Shown here piece by piece: positions 3,677 through 45,500 of a DNA stretch of 50,322 bases; positions within the stretch are counted from its first letter, which is position 1; every line of letters begins with the position of its first letter. Below the pieces are notes generated by a model. It was not told where the DNA came from. It searched no databases and saw only the letters and a program-made list of their open reading frames with translations. The translations under genes were made by a program, and so were the position numbers. Source of the stretch: Maricaulis salignorans (GTDB lineage: Bacteria; Pseudomonadota; Alphaproteobacteria; Caulobacterales; Aquidulcibacteraceae); contig CAMDDL010000017.1 in assembly GCA_945891505.1 (NCBI GenBank), positions 1 to 50,322 of the forward strand, written 5' to 3'.

Positions 3677-6565
3677 ATGACCACAGAACCACGCGACTAT
3701 CGCCCCACCATCTTCTTGCCAGACACCCCATTCCCGATGCGCGCAGGCCTGCCGCAGAAGGAGCCGCAATTTGTCGCAAAATGGCAGGCGGAAGACCTCT
3801 ATGGTCGCCAGCGCAAGGCCAGCGCAGGGCGCACGCGCTTTGTTTATCATGATGGCCCACCATACGCGAACGGCAACTCCCACATCGGGCACTCGCTGAA
3901 CAACAGCTTGAAGGACTTTGTCTGCCGGTCGCGCCAAGTCTTGGGTTTTGACGCGGACTTTGTGCCCGGCTGGGATTGCCACGGTCTGCCGATTGAGTGG
4001 AAGGTCGAAGAAGAGTTTCGCGCCAAGGGCCGTAAGAAGGACGAAGTGCCGGCCGCAGAATTCCGCGCTGCTTGCCGCGTCTATGCGCAAAAATGGGTCG
4101 ACATCCAAAGCGGTGAGCGCCAGCGCATGGGCCTGATGGCCAACTTCGCCAACCCCTATCGCACGATGGATTATGAGGCCGAAGCCACCATCGCCGAAGA
4201 ATTCCTGAAAGTTGTCAAAACCGGCCTCGTATTCCGTGGCTCTAAGCCCGTGATGTGGAGCCCGGTGGAGCGCACCTCGCTGGCCGAGGCCGAAGTCGAG
4301 TATCAAGAAAAGGTAAGCCCGACGATCTGGGTGAAGTTTCCGATCCTGACCGGCCCGGCTGAGGGTGCCAGTCTGATCATCTGGACCACCACGCCTTGGA
4401 CCATCCCTGGCAACCGCGCCGTCAGCTATTCGCCTGACATCGCCTATGGTGTCTATGAAGTCGAAGCCATGGAAGCCGATCTGGCGTTCGCGCCTTGGGC
4501 AGCGCCTGGCGATCGCCTCGTCGTGGCCGATAAACTAAAGGACGACGTATTTGGTGCGGCAAAGATTGCTGCAGCCAAGCGCGTGGCAGACTTTGATCCA
4601 GCCACGGCCCTATGCGCCCACCCCTTGCGTGGCCAAGGCTATGACTTTGACGTCCCCCTCCTATCCGGCGATCATGTCACCGATGAAGCAGGTACGGGCT
4701 TTGTGCATACGGCCCCCAGCCACGGCACGGACGATTATCTGGTTTGGATGAAATCTGGCCTACCCCAAGCCGACATTCCCTTCACCGTGGATGCCGATGG
4801 CCGCTACACCAAGGAAGCGCCGGGCTTTGAAGGCTTGGCGGTCTTGGAGTTGGAAGGCAAAAAGGCCGGTAAAGAAGGCCCAGCCAATGGCGCGGTGACC
4901 GCGGCTTTGATCGAGGCTGGCGGGCTGTTGGCGCGCGGCCGCCTCACCCACCAATATCCCCACTCGTGGCGCTCAAAAGCGCCTTTGATCTATCGCAACA
5001 CGCCGCAATGGTTCATCGCCATGGACAAGCCGGTCGAGCATTTGGGGGGTAAGACCCTGCGCGATGTGGCGATGGCCGAGATTGCCGCGACCGATTGGGG
5101 CAATGAAGCAGGCTCTAACCGCATCACCGCGATGGTCAGCGAGCGGCCAGATTGGTTGATCAGCCGCCAGCGTGCTTGGGGCGTGCCCTTGGTCATGTTC
5201 GTCCACAAGGACACCGCCACCATCCTGAAAGATGAAGCCGTGAATGAACGTATCTTGGCGGCCATGCGCACGGGCGGGGCTGATGCTTGGTTCACCAATG
5301 AAGCCAAATTCTTCCTCGGCGATGCCTATGATCCTGCCGAATATGAGAAGGTTGAAGACATTCTCGACGTCTGGTTCGATTCTGGCTGTACCCACGCCTT
5401 TGTGACGCGCAAGCGCTATGGCGAAGATACACAAGCAGACCTTTATCTGGAGGGCTCTGACCAGCATCGCGGCTGGTTCCAATCCTCTCTGCTGGAAAGC
5501 TGCGCCACACGCGGCAAGGCACCTTACAAGGCGGTGCGCACCCACGGCATGATCGTGGACGAGCAAGGCCGTAAAATGTCCAAGAGCTTGGGCAATGGGG
5601 TCGAGTTGGAAGATGTGCTGCGCCAAAACGGCATGGAAATCCTGCGCCTGTTGTTTGCTGCCGCCGACTACACCAATGAGTTGGCCTTGGGCAAAACCAT
5701 TCTGGATCAGGCGAGTGAAACCTACCGCAAGCTACGCAACACCTTGCGCTATATGTTGGCGAGCTTAAAGGACTTCAGCCCCGACAAAGCCGTCGCCTAT
5801 GCGGACATGCCCTTGCTGGAAAAATGGCTGTTGGGCCGAGCCTATGACGTCGGTGAAGAAGTGCGCGCGGCTTGGATGGATTATGACTTTAAGCGGGCTT
5901 TGTCGGCGGTGTCAGACTTTGCCAACCTCGACGTTTCCGCCCTTTATGTCGACGTGCGTAAGGATGCGCTATATTGCGACGAATTGGACAGTTTGCGCCG
6001 CCGCGCGAGCCAAACGGTGCTGGACCTGTTGTTTGAGCGCATGCTTCTGTGGCTTGCGCCGGTACTGCCTTTCACCACCGAAGAAGCCTGGGGCACACGC
6101 TTCCCAGAGGCAGAGTCTATCCATTTGCGCGCGCTCCAAGATGATCCGTCCGAATGGCAAGATGCCGACTTGGCGTCCCGTGTGGGCCATTTGCGCGACC
6201 TTCGCCGGGTCGTGACCGGTGCGTTGGAAGTCCAGCGTAGGGAGAAAACAATTGGCTCGTCGCTGGAAGCGGCCCCAGTTGTATTTGTCACCAATGACGC
6301 CATTCGTGGGGCAATTGGGCAGGAAGATTTGGCTGAGCTGTGCATCACTTCGGGCCTAGAGCTGCGCAATGGCGAAGGACCAGCTGAAGCTTTCCGCTTA
6401 GAGGAAGTCGCAGGCGTGTCGGTCGTGTTTGAACGCGCGCCAGGCGTCAAATGCGCGCGCAGCTGGAAGTTCTTTGATCCTGCAACCGCGCTTTCAGGCT
6501 TCCCCGACATCACCCCGCGTGACGCGCGCGCCGTGATGGCTTGGGACCAAACGAACCCGGCCTAA
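3677..6565 (+). CDS. ileS: isoleucyl-tRNA synthetase
   Basis: Class Ia synthetase that charges tRNA-Ile and edits misactivated valine. Visible features in order: the ATP-binding motif within PPYANGNSHIGH (61-72, HIGH 69-72), the IleS signature GWDCHGLPIEW, a CP1 editing domain with TWTTTPWTIPGN and GTGFVHTAPSHG, and KMSKS at 633-637 before the anticodon-binding helices. Length 962 aa is normal for the bacterial type. The C-terminal zinc-binding knob is degenerate: of the usual two Cys pairs only C926 remains (KCARSW, with TPRD where the second pair should be). The gene stands alone; lspA, a common neighbour elsewhere, is absent. A possible attenuator lies upstream. Confidence 0.97.
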   Translation: MTTEPRDYRPTIFLPDTPFPMRAGLPQKEPQFVAKWQAEDLYGRQRKASAGRTRFVYHDGPPYANGNSHIGHSLNNSLKDFVCRSRQVLGFDADFVPGWDCHGLPIEWKVEEEFRAKGRKKDEVPAAEFRAACRVYAQKWVDIQSGERQRMGLMANFANPYRTMDYEAEATIAEEFLKVVKTGLVFRGSKPVMWSPVERTSLAEAEVEYQEKVSPTIWVKFPILTGPAEGASLIIWTTTPWTIPGNRAVSYSPDIAYGVYEVEAMEADLAFAPWAAPGDRLVVADKLKDDVFGAAKIAAAKRVADFDPATALCAHPLRGQGYDFDVPLLSGDHVTDEAGTGFVHTAPSHGTDDYLVWMKSGLPQADIPFTVDADGRYTKEAPGFEGLAVLELEGKKAGKEGPANGAVTAALIEAGGLLARGRLTHQYPHSWRSKAPLIYRNTPQWFIAMDKPVEHLGGKTLRDVAMAEIAATDWGNEAGSNRITAMVSERPDWLISRQRAWGVPLVMFVHKDTATILKDEAVNERILAAMRTGGADAWFTNEAKFFLGDAYDPAEYEKVEDILDVWFDSGCTHAFVTRKRYGEDTQADLYLEGSDQHRGWFQSSLLESCATRGKAPYKAVRTHGMIVDEQGRKMSKSLGNGVELEDVLRQNGMEILRLLFAAADYTNELALGKTILDQASETYRKLRNTLRYMLASLKDFSPDKAVAYADMPLLEKWLLGRAYDVGEEVRAAWMDYDFKRALSAVSDFANLDVSALYVDVRKDALYCDELDSLRRRASQTVLDLLFERMLLWLAPVLPFTTEEAWGTRFPEAESIHLRALQDDPSEWQDADLASRVGHLRDLRRVVTGALEVQRREKTIGSSLEAAPVVFVTNDAIRGAIGQEDLAELCITSGLELRNGEGPAEAFRLEEVAGVSVVFERAPGVKCARSWKFFDPATALSGFPDITPRDARAVMAWDQTNPA

Positions 6566-6588: not shown

Positions 6589-7539
6589 TTGCGCCTCTGC
6601 GCGGGCCGTGGCACGCCCGTGCCTGTGTCTTCACCTACCAGCCCTTCCCGTCCCGGCGTCCTTGATTGGAGCTTGTTGGCCACTTTGGTCATCCTGTGGG
6701 GCTCTGCCTATGCGGGCACCCATATTGGCGTGGAAGTTTTGCCGCCAGCCGTTCTGGTGGCGTGCCGTCTCTGTATCGGGGCGTTTGTGCTGGGTCTGGG
6801 CTGTATCGCCATGGGGGCACACCTGCCCCGTTTGACGGACTATAAGACGTGGGGCGTCTTGAGCCTGATAGGGGCAACGGGCACCCTTCTGCCGTTTCTC
6901 TTGATTTCAATCGCGCAAAAGACGGTGCCATCGGCTTTGGCCGCAATTTATATCGCCGCAGCGCCGTTGACGGTGGCGATCTTGTGCCATTTTCTGGTGC
7001 CGAGCGAGCGGTTAAACCTAAAACGCGCGGTTGGCGTGGGCGTCGGCTTTCTGGGTGTGTGTCTGCTCTTTGCGCCAGCCTTGTCTAATCATGGCGTTGG
7101 GGCAACACCTGTCGTGTCCCAAGTCCTCTTGCTCGCCGCAGCCGTCCTTTATGGCTCCACCAGCGTGATGGTGCGCATGGTCAATCCAAACCTGCATCCG
7201 GTGGCTATGAGTTTTGGTTTTGTATTGGTGGCCGCTTTGTTGTCCCTGCCGCTGGCGGTCAGCGCTTGGCCAGCAGGCGGGGTACATATGGACGCCCGCC
7301 ATGTCTTCGCGATCTTGGGGCTCGGCGTTTTATCGACAGGGGTTGCTAACCTCGTTTATGTGCTGACCATTCGCCGGGTTGGCCCTGTCTTTATGTCCAA
7401 CGTTGGCAATCTGGCACCCTTCTGGTCGATCCTTGTGGGTGCCTTGGCGTTTGGTGAGGCCCTGCCCGCGACGACCTTTGCCGCGCTTGCAATCTTGCTG
7501 TTCGGCGTGTGGCTGGTTCAACGCCAAGGCGCACGTTAA
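6589..7539 (+). CDS. EamA/DMT-superfamily transporter
   Basis: Integral membrane protein of 316 aa with about ten hydrophobic segments arranged as two EamA repeats, the plan of drug/metabolite transporters. Early LWGSAYAG and the paired repeats fit this family; the substrate cannot be predicted. The annotated start is a TTG with a GAGGA ribosome site seven bases upstream; GTG codons at 6619 and 6625 are alternatives that would shorten only the cytoplasmic tail. It follows ileS by 23 bases and may be cotranscribed with it. Its stop overlaps the stop of the DUF2256 gene on the other strand by two bases. Confidence 0.85.
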
Positions 7540-40550: not shown

Positions 40551-41096
40551 ATGAACGCAGAGCCTAAAGCCAATCGCCTAATGGCGTTTCTGCCGCTCGC
40601 TTTGTTTCTAGCCTTAGCTGGGCTTTTTGTTTGGGCCATGTTTGGCCAAAGGGTTGACCGCCACGCCAGCGCCCTGATCGGCAAGCCCGTACCCCCGATC
40701 CTGTTGCCAGATATGGCGGGCAAAACCCTCGACCTCGCGAGCTATAAGGGGCGCGCAGTCATTTTGAACGTGTATGCTTCGTGGTGCGCGCCCTGCCGGG
40801 TTGAGCACCCCATGCTTTTTCAATTGGCCAAGGACAAGCGCTTTGTCGTGATCGGCCTAGCCTACCGCGACGATCCCAGCAAAACGCAAGCCTATCTCGA
40901 AGAATTGGGCGACCCGTATGCGCAGACCGGTATTGATCGGCAAGGGGCTGCTGGGGTGCAATTGGGCTTAGGTGGCGTGCCGGAAACTTATGTCATCAGC
41001 GCCAAGGGCGTTGTCTTGACCCGGCATCAGGGCGAAATCACGCCAAAGATAGCGGGAGAATTGGCGCAATTGGCGGCGCGTAATTCAGCACCCTGA
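40551..41096 (+). CDS. ccmG: thiol-disulfide reductase CcmG (DsbE)
   Basis: 181-aa membrane-tethered thioredoxin that keeps apocytochrome c thiols reduced. N-terminal anchor (about 11-31), active site WCAPC (78-82; C79, C82), then the CcmG-typical acidic stretch GVPETYVISAKG. Start at ATG 40551, ten bases after ccmD; a longer frame that begins inside ccmD is rejected. It closes the ccmCDG unit. Confidence 0.93.
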   Translation: MNAEPKANRLMAFLPLALFLALAGLFVWAMFGQRVDRHASALIGKPVPPILLPDMAGKTLDLASYKGRAVILNVYASWCAPCRVEHPMLFQLAKDKRFVVIGLAYRDDPSKTQAYLEELGDPYAQTGIDRQGAAGVQLGLGGVPETYVISAKGVVLTRHQGEITPKIAGELAQLAARNSAP

Positions 41097-41174
41097 GACA
41101 AGCTCAGTTAAGCTGGTTCCCCGTCGAAAATTTGTTAGCCAATCATTAACGCGACGCAGATTAGCCCTGACGTC

Positions 41175-41447
41175 ATGAAAGTCGATCCGCCTCTTTTTCC
41201 CCAGTCCTTAGGCCAAACCCCTGCCCCTGCGCGCCCATCAGCGGACGCCACAGAAGCGCGCAAGGCGTTTGCTGCCCTAGTGAGTGCCGCCAATCAACGC
41301 TCAAGCCTGCCGCGCGCGCCGTCAGCCGATGCCGCACCAACCCGACCCAATTCTGCCACCAATTCAACACCTTCCGTCAAAGCAGAAGAGCCAGCCACCC
41401 CAACTGGCTTGGCGAGACCTGGACGCGTGATCGACATCCGCGTCTAG
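41175..41447 (+). CDS. hypothetical Ala/Pro-rich 90-aa protein
   Basis: 90 aa rich in Ala, Pro and Ser, predicted disordered, ending in a hydrophobic-basic tail GRVIDIRV. No family recognised and no strong ribosome site (ATG after GACGTC). Its position between ccmG and the flagellin island, on the same strand, hints at a flagellar role, but nothing in the sequence proves one. It could also be a non-coding stretch with a chance open frame. Confidence 0.5.
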   Translation: MKVDPPLFPQSLGQTPAPARPSADATEARKAFAALVSAANQRSSLPRAPSADAAPTRPNSATNSTPSVKAEEPATPTGLARPGRVIDIRV

Positions 41448-41537
41448 AGGCCAAATTTGTCTAAAATCCAATTCAAATAAGCCTCAAATCAAGCGCTAAC
41501 TTAGCTTAATTTCCCCCAATTCTGCGGACGATTTATT

Positions 41538-41568
41538 GGTAACCAGTAGGTAATATTACCCTCGGTTA
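41538..41568 (+). promoter_or_regulatory. TTACC/GGTAA element upstream of the mini-flagellin
   Basis: A cluster of half-sites: GGTAACC (41538), GGTAAT (41549) and TTACC-CTC-GGTTA (41556-41568). The 12-mer ATTACCCTCGGT also occurs upstream of the second full flagellin (43194-43205). It lies in an AT-rich gap, 52-82 bases before the start codon, a suitable place for a regulator or core promoter. Confidence 0.5.
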
Positions 41569-41619
41569 TACCAACCAAGCGCCTGAATGGCGTTCCACCG
41601 CTTGATGAAGGATCATACA

Positions 41620-41994
41620 ATGATTGGCATCAACTCCAGCTTGGGGACCTTACTCGCCTTACAGCTGCAGGTCGCAGCCCGTAGTGACCCGGACCAGAAA
41701 AATCTGGACGACATACGTGCTCACGACGCTTCGTCAGACAGGGGTCAATTGGCCGTTGAGCTTGATCTGACGATACCTAGAAATCTGCCAGACAAACTCC
41801 CCAAGCCACACCACATCGATTTCCTCTCCCAGATGGAAGCAATCCTTTCCGCCAAATCAGAGCAGGAAACCACAAGTGACCTATCGACCGATGCTGCCCG
41901 CCTACAAGCGCTGCAAATACGTCAACAATTGGAGTCACAGCCTCACGGGATCGCCAATCGCGCATCCCAACTCGCGCTAGCGCTTTTCCGCTAG
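41620..41994 (+). CDS. mini-flagellin: flagellin ends without the core
   Basis: 124-aa protein. Its N-terminus (MIGINSSLGTLLALQLQ) lines up without gaps with the flagellin start (MISVNTNIGAMAAVQNL). Its last 34 residues (ARLQALQIRQQL...IANRASQLALALFR) line up with the C-terminal helix of the two neighbouring flagellins (AKLQSLQVKQQL...IANSGTQAALSLFR). About 70 residues between have no likeness to the flagellin core, so D1 is missing while both D0 ends remain. Start chosen at ATG 41620, preceded by AAGGATC as in the real flagellin genes; in-frame starts upstream (41587, 41605) are less likely. There is no frameshift or internal stop, so it is not an obvious decayed gene. It may be a minor filament, hook-junction or regulatory subunit. 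Confidence 0.8.
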   Translation: MIGINSSLGTLLALQLQVAARSDPDQKNLDDIRAHDASSDRGQLAVELDLTIPRNLPDKLPKPHHIDFLSQMEAILSAKSEQETTSDLSTDAARLQALQIRQQLESQPHGIANRASQLALALFR

Positions 41995-42047
41995 CCTCGG
42001 CTGACTTCACACCCTCTTTGTATGCGTGCCTTCGAGAGTTCAACCAT

Positions 42048-42092
42048 GCCGACCCGCGTCGGCGTGCATGGGGGCGGCTGTCCGCACCCATG
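42048..42092 (+). promoter_or_regulatory. two adjacent hairpins in the gap before flagellin 1
   Basis: GCCGAC-CCGC-GTCGGC (42048-42063) is followed almost at once by an 11-bp arm pair with one mismatch, CATGGGGGCGG (42067-42077) against CCGCACCCATG (42082-42092), loop CTGT. No T-run follows. It may end the mini-flagellin transcript or fold in the leader of the flagellin mRNA, which starts translation 96 bases later. Confidence 0.5.
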
Positions 42093-42187
42093 GGCTGAGC
42101 GAAGTTTCCCATAAACAGGGCCATAGCGCCCGTTTCAGCAACGCGTGACTTAAAGTCAAACCAATTGCTAAATGCAAGGAGATCACA

Positions 42188-43012
42188 ATGATCAGTGTAA
42201 ACACCAATATCGGTGCCATGGCCGCCGTTCAAAACCTCAAACAAACCGGCGTGCAACTTCAACAAACTCAATCCGCCATCTCAACCGGCAAGAAAATTGC
42301 CAATGTTCGCGACAATGGCGCGGTTTGGGTCATCGCCAATAAAATGACCACCGATCTGCAAGCCTATAGCCGCGTGCGTGAATCAAATGACCGGGCCAAT
42401 GCCATCCTTGACACCGCCATAGCCGCTGGCGAAGGGGTGATGGAATTGCTCAATGAAATGAAGGCAAAGGCCTTGGCAGGCACCCAAACCGGTCTGTCAG
42501 CGGGCTCACAAGCCGCGCTAGCAGCTGACTTCGCCCAATTGCGCGACCAGATCACAACCATCGTTGCCAATGCTTCCTTTGACGGGACCAATATGGTGAA
42601 GGCCACACCCGATAGCGCCATTGCTTTAGGGGATTCCTCTGGCGGCAATGGCATTACAATCCTCGGCGCAGATTTGGGTTTAAACGGCGGCGTGGTCACT
42701 GTCACAACAGGTTCAGCCGTTGATTCATCCGGAAATGCCTTGACTGCCCTTGGGCAAGTCAACGCATCGATCACAGCTGTTGGGACGCAATTGGCCACTT
42801 GGGGTGCCGGAGCAAAGCGGCTGCAAGTCCAACGTGCCTTTGTCAGCAAGCTGCAAGATGCCCTAAACACCGGGATTGGCTCGCTGGTTGACGCCGATTT
42901 GTCGTCCGAGAGCGCCAAATTGCAATCCTTGCAAGTGAAACAGCAATTGGGCATCCAGGCCCTTTCCATTGCTAACTCAGGCACGCAAGCGGCTTTGTCG
43001 CTGTTTCGCTAA
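42188..43012 (+). CDS. flagellin, first full-length copy
   Basis: 274-aa flagellin, the filament subunit exported through the flagellum. The conserved N-terminal helix runs from MISVNTNIGAMAAVQNL through SAISTGKKIANVRDNGA, and the C-terminal helix ends in SIANSGTQAALSLFR. The variable D2/D3 domains are almost absent, as in Caulobacter flagellins. An AAGGAG ribosome site lies seven bases before the ATG. It is very similar to the second copy downstream. flaF and flbT are not in the window, so this locus is separated from those genes. Confidence 0.95.
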   Translation: MISVNTNIGAMAAVQNLKQTGVQLQQTQSAISTGKKIANVRDNGAVWVIANKMTTDLQAYSRVRESNDRANAILDTAIAAGEGVMELLNEMKAKALAGTQTGLSAGSQAALAADFAQLRDQITTIVANASFDGTNMVKATPDSAIALGDSSGGNGITILGADLGLNGGVVTVTTGSAVDSSGNALTALGQVNASITAVGTQLATWGAGAKRLQVQRAFVSKLQDALNTGIGSLVDADLSSESAKLQSLQVKQQLGIQALSIANSGTQAALSLFR

Positions 43013-43032
43013 GGCGCTAGGCAAAGACTGAT

Positions 43033-43088
43033 TGACCCGAGCCAATGGCCCGGATGATTGCTTGAGGCACTCGTCCGGGTCACTTTGT
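43033..43088 (+). terminator. possible terminator after flagellin 1
   Basis: Arms TGACCCG (43033-43039) and CGGGTCA (43076-43082) pair perfectly across a 36-base, partly structured loop. The right arm is followed by CTTTGTT. The long loop makes it a weak candidate. Confidence 0.4.
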
Positions 43089-43194
43089 TAGTAGCCTAGG
43101 CCACTGTCGTTGCGATGGTGCAGTCGTGTCGGACCGCACCCTACGAGCCGCAATCCGCGAAATATGTCGCCCACGCCAGCCAGACTGCATTTCA

Positions 43195-43232
43195 TTACCC
43201 TCGGTAACGTACGATTCATAACCCGGTGGTAA
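43195..43232 (+). promoter_or_regulatory. TTACC/GGTAA element upstream of flagellin 2
   Basis: Perfect inverted repeat TTACC-CTC-GGTAA (43195-43207), followed by TAACC-CGGT-GGTAA (43219-43232). Twelve bases, ATTACCCTCGGT, are shared with the element at 41555-41566 before the mini-flagellin, but no such element is seen before flagellin 1. It lies 68-105 bases upstream of the start codon. Confidence 0.5.
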
Positions 43233-43299
43233 CATCGATCCTGTCACAATGACATGGCGACAAAAAGTCGCCCAAAATGCAAAAAGCAAAGGGATCAAA

Positions 43300-44127
43300 A
43301 TGATCAGCGTCAATACAAATATCGGGGCTATGGCTGCCATTCAAAACTTGTCTGCTACCAATCGCGACTTGCAGGAAACTCAGAACGCGATTTCGACCGG
43401 CAAGAAAGTCGCTTCCGCCAAGGACAATGGCGCAATCTGGACCATTGCCAATAAAATGACCTCCGAAGTCAAGGCCTATGGCCGCGTTCGGGAATCCAAT
43501 GAGCGCGCTGCAGCAATCCTCGACACGGGCATTGCAGCGGCGGAAAGCATCATGGAGTTGCTTAATGAAATGAAGGGCAAAGCGCTCGCTGCGACCCAGC
43601 CGGGCTTATCTGCCCCATCCCAAGCAGCTTTGGCAGGCGACTTTCTGCAATTGCGCAATCAAATCACCAACGTGGTTGCAAACGCCTCATTCGACGGCGC
43701 GAACATGGTCAGCGGTGCAACACCGGCCTCTGCCATCTCCCTGGGCGATGCCGCTGGCGGCAATAACATCACCGTAGCTGGCGCGAACTTGTCTCTGGGA
43801 GGCACGGTCGTGACGGTGACGGGATTGAATGTCCTAACTTCGGACATAACCGCCGGTGCCGCACTGACCGCGGTCAACGCCTCAATCACCAACCTTGGCA
43901 CGCAAATGGCAACTTGGGGCGCTGGCGCGAAGCGGCTAGAGGTTCACCGCGAGTTTGTTTCTAAGCTTTCAGATGCCCTCAACACCGGGATTGGGGCCAT
44001 TACTGATGCCGACCTCAGCAAGGAGAGCGCGAAGCTGCAATCCTTGCAAGTCAAACAACAGCTGGGCATTCAGGCACTTTCGATTGCCAATAGTTCCGCC
44101 CAGTCCGCGCTTTCACTCTTCCGCTAA
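43300..44127 (+). CDS. flagellin, second full-length copy
   Basis: 275-aa flagellin. N-terminus MISVNTNIGAMAAIQNL and C-terminus SAKLQSLQVKQQL...SIANSSAQSALSLFR are nearly the same as copy 1; the central part (about 140-215) differs most. Start at ATG 43300, with an AAAGGGATC ribosome site of the same type as the other two genes; a longer frame from 43249 is rejected because flagellins begin MISVN. Own promoter region with the TTACC/GGTAA element and own terminator show separate transcription. Confidence 0.95.
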   Translation: MISVNTNIGAMAAIQNLSATNRDLQETQNAISTGKKVASAKDNGAIWTIANKMTSEVKAYGRVRESNERAAAILDTGIAAAESIMELLNEMKGKALAATQPGLSAPSQAALAGDFLQLRNQITNVVANASFDGANMVSGATPASAISLGDAAGGNNITVAGANLSLGGTVVTVTGLNVLTSDITAGAALTAVNASITNLGTQMATWGAGAKRLEVHREFVSKLSDALNTGIGAITDADLSKESAKLQSLQVKQQLGIQALSIANSSAQSALSLFR

Positions 44128-44150
44128 GAGAAGAGACTTATTTAAAAACT

Positions 44151-44180
44151 TGGCCCGGACGATACCGCCCGGGCCATTTT
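44151..44180 (+). terminator. rho-independent terminator after flagellin 2
   Basis: TGGCCCGG (44151-44158) pairs with CCGGGCCA (44169-44176) across a 10-base loop, followed by TTTTCTTGTT. It is the clearest terminator in the window and separates the flagellin from the convergent acyl-CoA dehydrogenase gene. Confidence 0.85.
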
Positions 44181-44204
44181 CTTGTTGATTTTTGACTACG
44201 CGAC

Positions 44205-45500
44205 CTAGCGAATGCCGGGTACGTGCAAAGCAGCTTCCGCTTCAGCTTTTGCCTTCATGGCACCCCCCGCATGACGCCCCAGTTCAAGGCGCGCAATCGT
44301 GCGGTTATGCACTTCATCGGGGCCGTCTGCCAGACGCAGGGTACGCTGATGGGCATAAGCCGACGCCAAGCCAAAGTCTTGGCTGACACCACCGCCGCCA
44401 TGGGCTTGGATCGCATCATCGATGATTTGTAGAGCCATGTTCGGTGCCTGCACCTTGATCATCGCGATCTCAGCGCGTGCAACCTTATTGCCGACCGTAT
44501 CCATCATATAAGCAGCCTTTAGGCAGAGCAGACGGGTCATTTCGATGTCGATGCGGGCGCGCGCGATGCGTTGCTCCCAGATCGAGTGCTCGGCGACTGT
44601 CTTGCCAAACGCGACGCGCGTGGTGAGGCGCTGACACATCTTTTCCAGCGCCATTTCAGCGACGCCAATGGTGCGCATGCAATGGTGAATCCGGCCTGGG
44701 CCCAAGCGGCCTTGGGCGATCTCAAAGCCAGCGCCTTCGCGCAAGATCAAGTTTTCAGCTGGCACGCGCACATTTTCCATCTTCACTTCGAAGTGGCCAT
44801 GTGGCGCATCGTCATAGCCAAACACATGCAGCGGACGGACCAAGGTCACGCCTTTTGCATCCAAAGGCATCAAGATTTGGCTCTGCTGGGTGTAGGATTT
44901 GGCGCTAGGGTCGGTCTTGCCCATCACGATGGCGACTTTGCACCGTGGGTCGCCCACGCCAGAGCTCCACCACTTGGTACCATTGATGACATATTCATCG
45001 CCATCGCGCACGATGGAGGTCTGGATGTTGGTCGCGTCGGACGAGGCAACGGCTGGCTCGGTCATCAAGAAGGCCGAACGGATTTGCCCGTTCATCAACG
45101 GCCGCAGCCACTTTTCCTTTTGCTCTAACGTGCCATAGCGCATCAGCACTTCCATATTGCCGGTGTCAGGCGCCGAGCAATTGAAAACTTCAGAGGCAAA
45201 ACCGACGCGGCCCAAAATTTCAGCGATGGCCGAATAGGTGACGTTCGACAGGCCGGGGCCTTCAAATTCAAATGTATCGTCGACATGGGCTGCGCCATGG
45301 CTTGGCGGCATAAACATGTTCCAAAGGCCAGCAGCCTTTGCTTTAACTTTGAGGTCTTCGACAACTTGGATGACCTTCCAACGCTCACCCTCAGCATCTT
45401 GTTGCTGATAAACCGGAATGGCAGGAATGATATGTTCCTCCATAAAGGCTTCAACGCGGTCGATCCAATGCTTGGTTACGTCTGAATGTTCGAAAATCAT
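44205..45500 (-). CDS. acyl-CoA dehydrogenase (ACAD10/11-like)
   Basis: 431-aa flavoprotein that introduces a double bond into acyl-CoA. Landmarks: [15 protein letters not shown] (FAD/substrate loop), [25 protein letters not shown] and the C-terminal [32 protein letters not shown], which is the pattern of the ACAD10/ACAD11 and FadE-like branch. Start at ATG 45500 with an AGGGAG ribosome site; a longer frame reaching 45620 would overlap the divergent GNAT start and is not supported. Chain length preference is unknown. It stands alone. Confidence 0.92.

Follow-up and report, generated by a model that had tools for sequence, protein, structure and literature searches.

A short gene with flagellin-like ends precedes two full-length flagellin genes in the window, by which the whole analysed stretch of 50,322 nt is meant (Table 1). 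Translation of the window gave a 124 aa ORF with zero internal stops, and similarity at the N- and C-termini bore out an earlier sequence-only reading, which had described an intact frame of this length with both flagellin ends upstream of the flagellins. A longer frame of 135 aa opens at the ATG at 41587; as this codon sits in a leader hairpin and is absent in the relative G005, the 124 aa start was taken as right. The ribosome-binding site had been described as of flagellin type, and a similar GGATCA context and leader were indeed seen before flagellins. Just upstream of this mini-flagellin gene lies a 90 aa ORF (41175–41447) that matched no Pfam or NCBIfam model at E ≤ 1; by eye, a clear relative of it lies at the same place in another locus (L033:6880–7182).

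Table 1. Positions of the mini-flagellin gene, its neighbours and associated elements (window coordinates unless a locus is named)
Feature	Position	Strand	Basis
Promoter/operator-like motif GTAAC-N5-GGTAAT (alternatively GTAA-N7-GTAA)	41539..41554	+	Pattern search of 15 loci
Leader hairpin A, GGTT-ATACC-AACC	41564..41576	+	Four pairs unbroken in 9/9 leaders; U-A to C-G in G002
Leader hairpin B, AGCGCC-TGAAT-GGCGTT, with its end 25 nt upstream of the ATG	41578..41594	+	Folding and alignment
Ribosome-binding site AAGGA	41608..41612	+	Reading by eye; similar GGATCA context before several flagellin starts
Mini-flagellin gene, 124 aa	41620..41994	+	Translation, BLAST and alignment of orthologues
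Flagellin-like N-terminal segment, codons 1–22	41620..41685	+	Orthologue alignment, shuffle test, dS
Linker, codons 23–63, fast-evolving, predicted coil	41686..41808	+	dN/dS and low-confidence AlphaFold2 models
Segment homologous to flagellin C-terminus, codons 64–124	41809..41991	+	NCBIfam, blastp, dN/dS
Pro108-x-Gly110, mini-specific	41941..41949	+	Alignment of minis with flagellins
Flagellin 1, 274 aa, in a probable operon with the mini gene	42188..43012	+	Pfam; no promoter motif of its own in nine genus loci
Same promoter motif ahead of flagellin 2	43218..43233	+	Pattern search
Tandem-hairpin leader of flagellin 2, up to the start codon	43239..43302	+	Comparison of flagellin leaders and covariation
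Flagellin 2, 275 aa	43300..44127	+	ORF and Pfam
Second mini-flagellin type (other genus of the family)	L028:9238–9588; L029:9419–9769		

Residues 65–124 of the mini protein were 43 % identical to flagellin 2, the second gene downstream (blastp, E = 2e-12), and residues 82–124 matched the NCBIfam flagellin model NF009329 (E = 3.5e-6, 26.7 bits, the whole-protein cut-off being 311). Residues 64–124 also matched residues 213–273 of solved flagellins (best E = 2e-4), among which those with Flj names are from Caulobacter. Pfam Flagellin_C scored 15.5 bits (E = 0.022) against a cut-off of 23 bits, homology being clear from the blastp result, and Flagellin_N gave no match at E ≤ 1. The N-terminal D0/D1 domain that forms part of the Pfam definition of a flagellin (PF00669 plus PF00700) is therefore lacking, with similarity over about 17 N-terminal residues. 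For each of the eight orthologues, the ungapped score of these 17 residues against the neighbouring flagellins was reached by at most 4e-4 of 20,000 shuffles. Three of the 1094 ATG-started 17-mers of the window reached the score of the mini protein (values 75, 75 and 30); judged from these values, they are the two flagellins and the mini gene itself.

Of the 17 N-terminal and 34 C-terminal residues previously said to match flagellin, the N-terminal part (17–22 residues) held, whereas the C-terminal similarity spans 60 residues, so that the unrelated middle shrinks from about 70 to about 41 residues (23–63). This middle showed no similarity beyond the orthologues in Pfam, NCBIfam, genome and blastp searches or among solved flagellins. 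The D1 core is missing, as had been stated, but by the usual domain borders of flagellin the mini protein retains part of the C-terminal D1 helix. It keeps just the two ends of the filament protein. In codon usage the mini gene was no less flagellin-like than the two flagellin genes beside it and scored higher than all 39 background genes of the window, although 6.7 % of 150 background chunks scored as high; as a weak proxy for stoichiometry, this does not point to a rare regulator.

From same-genus labels we infer that the source organism belongs to the Aquidulcibacter group, freshwater bacteria of the Caulobacterales, and a family Aquidulcibacteraceae has been proposed for Aquidulcibacter and its kin in the available part of the source (PMC12700997). 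Orthologues were sought in 61 genomes and in 60 genomes of the family. Eight of the nine genomes of the genus, the source genome included, carried an intact mini gene (identities 100, 81, 81, 81, 74, 72, 51–52 and 34–36 %), in every case directly upstream of a flagellin and without frameshift, so that the layout beside flagellin genes for which a search had been proposed recurs in relatives. In the ninth, G006, a broken remnant was recognized by eye, with promoter motif and leader kept; this genome has lost the mini gene, whereas its flagellins, FlbT and FlaF are retained. From the remaining 51 genomes of the family, nothing came out at E ≤ 2e-8 apart from two matches to the C-terminus only, one in a flagellin-length frame of 312 aa (G013) and one at a contig edge (G011). 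Among 385 genomes of the class, the source genome alone matched at E ≤ 3e-9, and that draw therefore contained no other intact member of the genus.

Nei–Gojobori estimates were obtained for 28 orthologue pairs. For residues 64–124, dN/dS was 0.09–0.26 in the 23 pairs with finite dS, the five saturated pairs all involving G005, and this C-terminal segment is under purifying selection. The linker was the least conserved part, with values of 0.23–1.0 wherever the ratio was finite (25 of 28 pairs). In the 21 pairs of equal length, flagellin 1 gave 0.03–0.11. Over the short stretch of the first 22 codons, dS was below that of the C-terminal segment in 21 of the 21 pairs without G005, as if the RNA were constrained too.

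Residues invariant in the eight minis include A19-A20-R21, R101-Q102-Q103-L104-E105, P108, G110, I111 and R114-A115. Where all eight have Pro108 and Gly110, the 28 full-length flagellins aligned all have Ala and Ser. The CD0 helix of flagellin is continuous, and an invariant Pro and Gly at these columns argue against ordinary D0 packing. The proposal that both ends serve D0 packing and that the protein is hence a cap, nucleator or terminator loses support accordingly. Prediction of the structure of the protein alone, which had also been suggested, gave no confident fold in two AlphaFold2 runs (mean pLDDT 56.6 and 58.8). Both models had the same layout of helix and coil, with a short N-terminal helix, a coil linker and a long C-terminal helical stretch broken within residues 106–113, and because pLDDT was low in both, statements about helices are weak. 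Within this limit, an interruption of the C-terminal helix at Pro108/Gly110 is likely, and these residues together with the missing D1 argue, as far as sequence can, against polymerization into a filament. For FlbT and FlaF, no sequence relative was found in the PDB at E ≤ 1.

A motif of the form RTAAC-N5-GGTAAY precedes the mini gene and flagellin 2, at 81 nt and 82 nt from the respective start. The search pattern [AG]T[AG]AC-N5-GGTAA[CT], chosen after the two window copies had been seen, occurred 19 times in 15 loci, 10 times before flagellins and nine times before the mini gene, counting the remnant. Its distance from the start was 80–82 nt in the 18 places where a start was assigned, which leaves out the remnant. 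All nine genomes of the genus had it ahead of the mini gene and also ahead of one or more other flagellins; none was found in four loci from outside the genus or in two other flagellin loci of the source genome. Since a reversed control was more frequent in the source genome (five occurrences against three), only the conserved place in relatives gives the motif weight. Its spacing resembles that of CtrA sites. Flagellin 1 had no such motif upstream in any of the nine genus loci, and the mini gene is therefore probably the first gene of an operon with flagellin 1. The 193 nt gap between the two genes (41995–42187) is well conserved in the genus except in G002 and G005, even beside the remnant in G006, and holds inverted repeats such as 42067–42077/42082–42092 and 42045–42053/42058–42066.

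Both hairpins of the mini leader were recovered by RNAalifold. Misalignment of hairpin B in G002 and G005, where gap placement breaks its pairs while both leaders form a stem of their own at about this position, accounts for a covariation term of +0.29; two of the 14 predicted pairs were changed on both sides. The loop of hairpin B, TGAAT, recurs in three of the four L076 flagellin leaders. A leader model (R1) was built from 23 of 35 flagellin leaders, on which the structure was drawn by eye before counting; mini leaders were excluded, as were nine flagellin 1-type leaders with a single hairpin and the leaders at L022:14613, L028:6415 and L029:6562. All six pairs of the second helix of R1 showed changes on both sides, with 85 % of cells paired, and its covariation score was 0.461, compared with 0.178 after shuffling and 0.054–0.131 in slid controls. 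Five of the eight held-out mini leaders were found by R1, each match ending at the start codon (14.5–16.9 bits, the best stray match scoring 14.0), with E values of 0.08–0.33 over 301,815 bases; these five come from close relatives and are not independent. The mini leader of the window itself reached 6.5 bits (E = 6.4) with filters off only, and those of G004 and G005 were not among the matches listed. Held-out flagellin 1 leaders scored 19.7–26 bits. No Rfam family matched positions 41000–44300 of the window.

The strongly covarying tandem-hairpin 5′ leader was seen at flagellin genes of the genus, as before flagellin 2 in the window and at L076:4495–4558, 5545–5609 and 6601–6665, and more weakly in other genera (L030, L038 and L078). 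It is a candidate RNA target of FlbT. In G008 (L024:11944–11968, − strand) and G007 (L025:5281–5305), the first hairpin can be extended to a 10 bp stem that uses part of the second, a possible RNA switch.

In G020 and G032, two of the five genomes of a different genus in the family, a second type of mini-flagellin, of 117 aa, was present. Its gene sits between a gene that we call FlaG-like and a flagellin, directly 5′ of the latter. The two copies differed with dN 0.037 and dS 0.548, and their C-terminal 51 codons had no non-synonymous against 14 synonymous changes. The Pro/Gly mark is absent, Ser and Ala occupying these columns in both. In a tree of C-terminal sequences (66 columns, long branches), the second type fell within another flagellin clade (fork 98/95), apart from the first, and its origin was probably separate. 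When 200 genomes of the order were scanned, it occurred, among the matches listed, in G020 and G032 only, the others being C-terminal matches mostly within flagellin-length frames. Because a second and probably separate mini gene also lies 5′ of a flagellin and is under strong purifying selection, loss of D1 with retention of both ends seems to have been useful more than once.

Other short frames were set aside. G148:C82 (101 aa), G148:C27 (157 aa), G130:C21 (82 aa) and G054:C42 (182 aa) are contig-end frames of ordinary flagellin sequence, and G006:C17 and G013:C242 are contig-edge pieces (38 and 40 residues) of full flagellins. G021:C29, G007:C159 and G048:C2 are split frames or contain N; among the matches listed, a frameshift splits the flagellin G183:C8, and G202:C2 is a scaffold that contains runs of N. 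Further short flagellin-C frames were one of 74 aa starting at a contig edge in G011:C130, one of 46 aa at a contig edge in G004:C65 and one of 225 aa in G006:C80, a tally that covers the matches listed and may miss weaker ones. A divergent flagellin (L021:9621–10442 and L022:13794–14615 (−)), 52–55 % identical to flagellins 1 and 2 and ending in REQLATQAFSVAN...LFP, lies between the counterparts of flagellins 1 and 2 in G003 and G001; it was not seen in the other genus loci read.

FlbT and FlaF genes were each found in all nine genomes of the genus; as most mini-free relatives have both too, their presence is not specific to minis. In G003, whose genome is one contig, about 288 kb separate FlbT and the mini gene. 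Within the genus of the second type, G025 and G029, which lack a mini gene, have FlbT beside the flagellins, G020 and G032 have it on another contig, and no FlbT was found in G034. An association of mini genes with unlinked FlbT rests on few genomes. The FljJ–FlbT–FlaF scheme of Caulobacter crescentus, whose original study is reportedly that of Ardissone et al. 2020, offers a precedent. In the available parts of PMC7591256, FljJ binds FlbT, whereupon translation of the other flagellins is repressed, and FlaF-dependent secretion of FljJ lifts the repression; FljJ is described there as 49 % identical to the other flagellins and unable to form a filament alone. Binding of the flagellin 5′ UTR by FlbT is likewise reported in excerpted sources (PMC4347634, PMC3930126), and for Brucella FlbT a role as activator has been proposed (PMC4347634).

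With a little less than an even chance in our estimate, the mini protein is a flagellin-derived regulatory or export-checkpoint protein and not a filament subunit. This reading is based on the position of the gene at the head of a probable operon, the selected C-terminus, the shared motif and leader, Pro108/Gly110 with the helix break there in both low-confidence models, and the FljJ precedent, and further on the presence of FlbT and FlaF in all nine genomes, the second mini type and the eight intact copies among nine. Having a promoter and leader of the flagellin type, the mini protein would be made alongside the flagellins; motif and hairpins are seen in the sequence, and expression is presumed. 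Its C-terminal segment may be bound by the export chaperone FlaF and/or the translational regulator FlbT, its N-terminal segment would be a probable export signal, and without a D1 core and with Pro/Gly in the C-terminal helix it would not polymerize. As long as it stayed inside the cell, it would signal that export was not yet running, and FlbT would restrain the flagellin mRNAs by way of the leader hairpins; with the hook–basal body ready, FlaF would export the mini protein and the block would end. Except for the role of the hairpins, which is added here, this scheme is the one reported for FljJ in the accessible text (PMC7591256). Of the functions listed in the sequence-only reading, titration of flagellin-specific factors fits best. 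The full length of FljJ, the loss of the mini gene from G006, with FlbT, FlaF and flagellins kept, the weak fit of the mini leaders to R1 and, as a weak test, the flagellin-like codon usage count against the regulatory reading. The Pro/Gly mark need not be a mark of FljJ, since an ordinary C-terminus was seen in the G050 flagellin that lies nearest FlbT, a guessed FljJ position. The second mini type is without the mark.

Chief among the rivals, and possible but in our view unlikely, is a minor structural part close to the hook, by which the protein would be a hook-proximal adaptor, nucleator or filament terminator that packs through its D0-type ends only. Retention of both flagellin ends, a motif common to flagellins, first place in the probable operon and codon usage like that of the neighbour flagellins are compatible with such a part, and FljJ is placed closest to the hook in the available passages of PMC7591256. 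The invariant Pro108/Gly110 pair, which stands in the D0-type stretch of the C-terminus and was found in none of 28 flagellins, is difficult to reconcile with it, as are the mere 17–22 N-terminal residues, the lack of a match to FlgL or hook-associated models and the lack of a confident fold in either AlphaFold2 run. It is quite unlikely that the protein is a passive decoy competing for FlaF or the export gate, or a secreted product with an extracellular role, and exerts no translational control. The linker, where an exported domain might have been sought, shows no sign of one and is the least conserved part; conservation of the putative export and chaperone segments would suit this explanation, and secreted non-filament flagellins have precedents in Campylobacter FlaC and the Vibrio FHPs (PMC4863622, PMC6692518, in part), but FlaC as described there is near full length, at about 28 kDa.

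We regard it as very unlikely that the ORF owes its retention chiefly to its RNA or to a translational coupling of flagellin 1, with a peptide of little use. The low dS of the first 22 codons and the promoter motif and leader retained beside the remnant in G006 speak for it; the C-terminal codons, however, lie far from the leader and are nevertheless selected, in both mini types, and a gap of 193 nt to flagellin 1 is unsuited to coupling. A decaying flagellin duplicate is hardly credible. The earlier reading had named a non-conserved linker in homologues, or a frameshift in sister strains, as evidence against its proposal: the orthologues are intact and free of frameshifts, although the linker is poorly conserved and evolves fast, and a broken remnant was seen in one species only. 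Persistence of intact copies down to 34–36 % identity, clade-specific invariant residues and purifying selection led us to reject decay for most species, G006 excepted.

Taking the regulatory reading further, the family may at least twice have made a dedicated, non-polymerizing ‘export reporter’ from the flagellin ends on a flexible string, read by FlbT and FlaF to switch flagellin translation on at channel opening and autoregulated in that its own hairpin leader would be of the type under its control; we consider this speculative and rather doubtful. How bacteria without FliA/FlgM-type control sense an open export channel before flagellin translation is only partly understood, and a natural protein of flagellin ends only would show which part of flagellin FlbT and FlaF sense. 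The mini protein is a minimal, directly testable component, and its probable repeated origin would be a case of regulators evolving from a structural protein through domain loss.

The open-licence PubMed Central literature searched on FljJ, FlbT and FlaF, on short or D1-lacking flagellins and on Aquidulcibacter flagella contained no comparable protein, in line with the earlier statement that no described protein of this architecture was known. We think that the mini protein works like a specialized flagellin paralogue, but it is neither a flagellin by the Pfam definition nor an FljJ by length. FljJ is a full-length flagellin and heads the flagellin tandem. The mini protein, too, is a paralogue of flagellin whose gene comes first in a flagellin tandem (all eight intact copies), in genomes that encode FlbT and FlaF, and is likewise proposed to be unable to build a filament alone; unlike FljJ, with its full length and about half identity to other flagellins, it has 124 aa, no D1 core, the ends only, and Pro/Gly in the C-terminal stretch. 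FlgL (HAP3) also has flagellin-like D0 ends, but the mini protein is far shorter and matched no FlgL/HAP3, FliD or hook-associated model of Pfam or NCBIfam at E ≤ 1, and an identity as FlgL or FliD was rejected on this ground; the two full flagellins match the NCBIfam FlgL model weakly. The Vibrio FHPs are near full length and flagellin-like throughout. Like them and FlaC of the Campylobacterales, the mini protein is a flagellin relative, and those two lie outside the filament as far as the accessible reports go; their reported roles are outside the cell, FlaC retains D1, and the mini protein lacks the near full length and D1 of such secreted flagellins. EspA, termed a ‘mini-flagellin’ in the available part of PMC1084347, shares with it the name and the idea of a shortened flagellin-like subunit. 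EspA as described there is without D0 and keeps a D1-type coiled coil, and the mini protein, with D0 ends and no D1 core, is its reverse.
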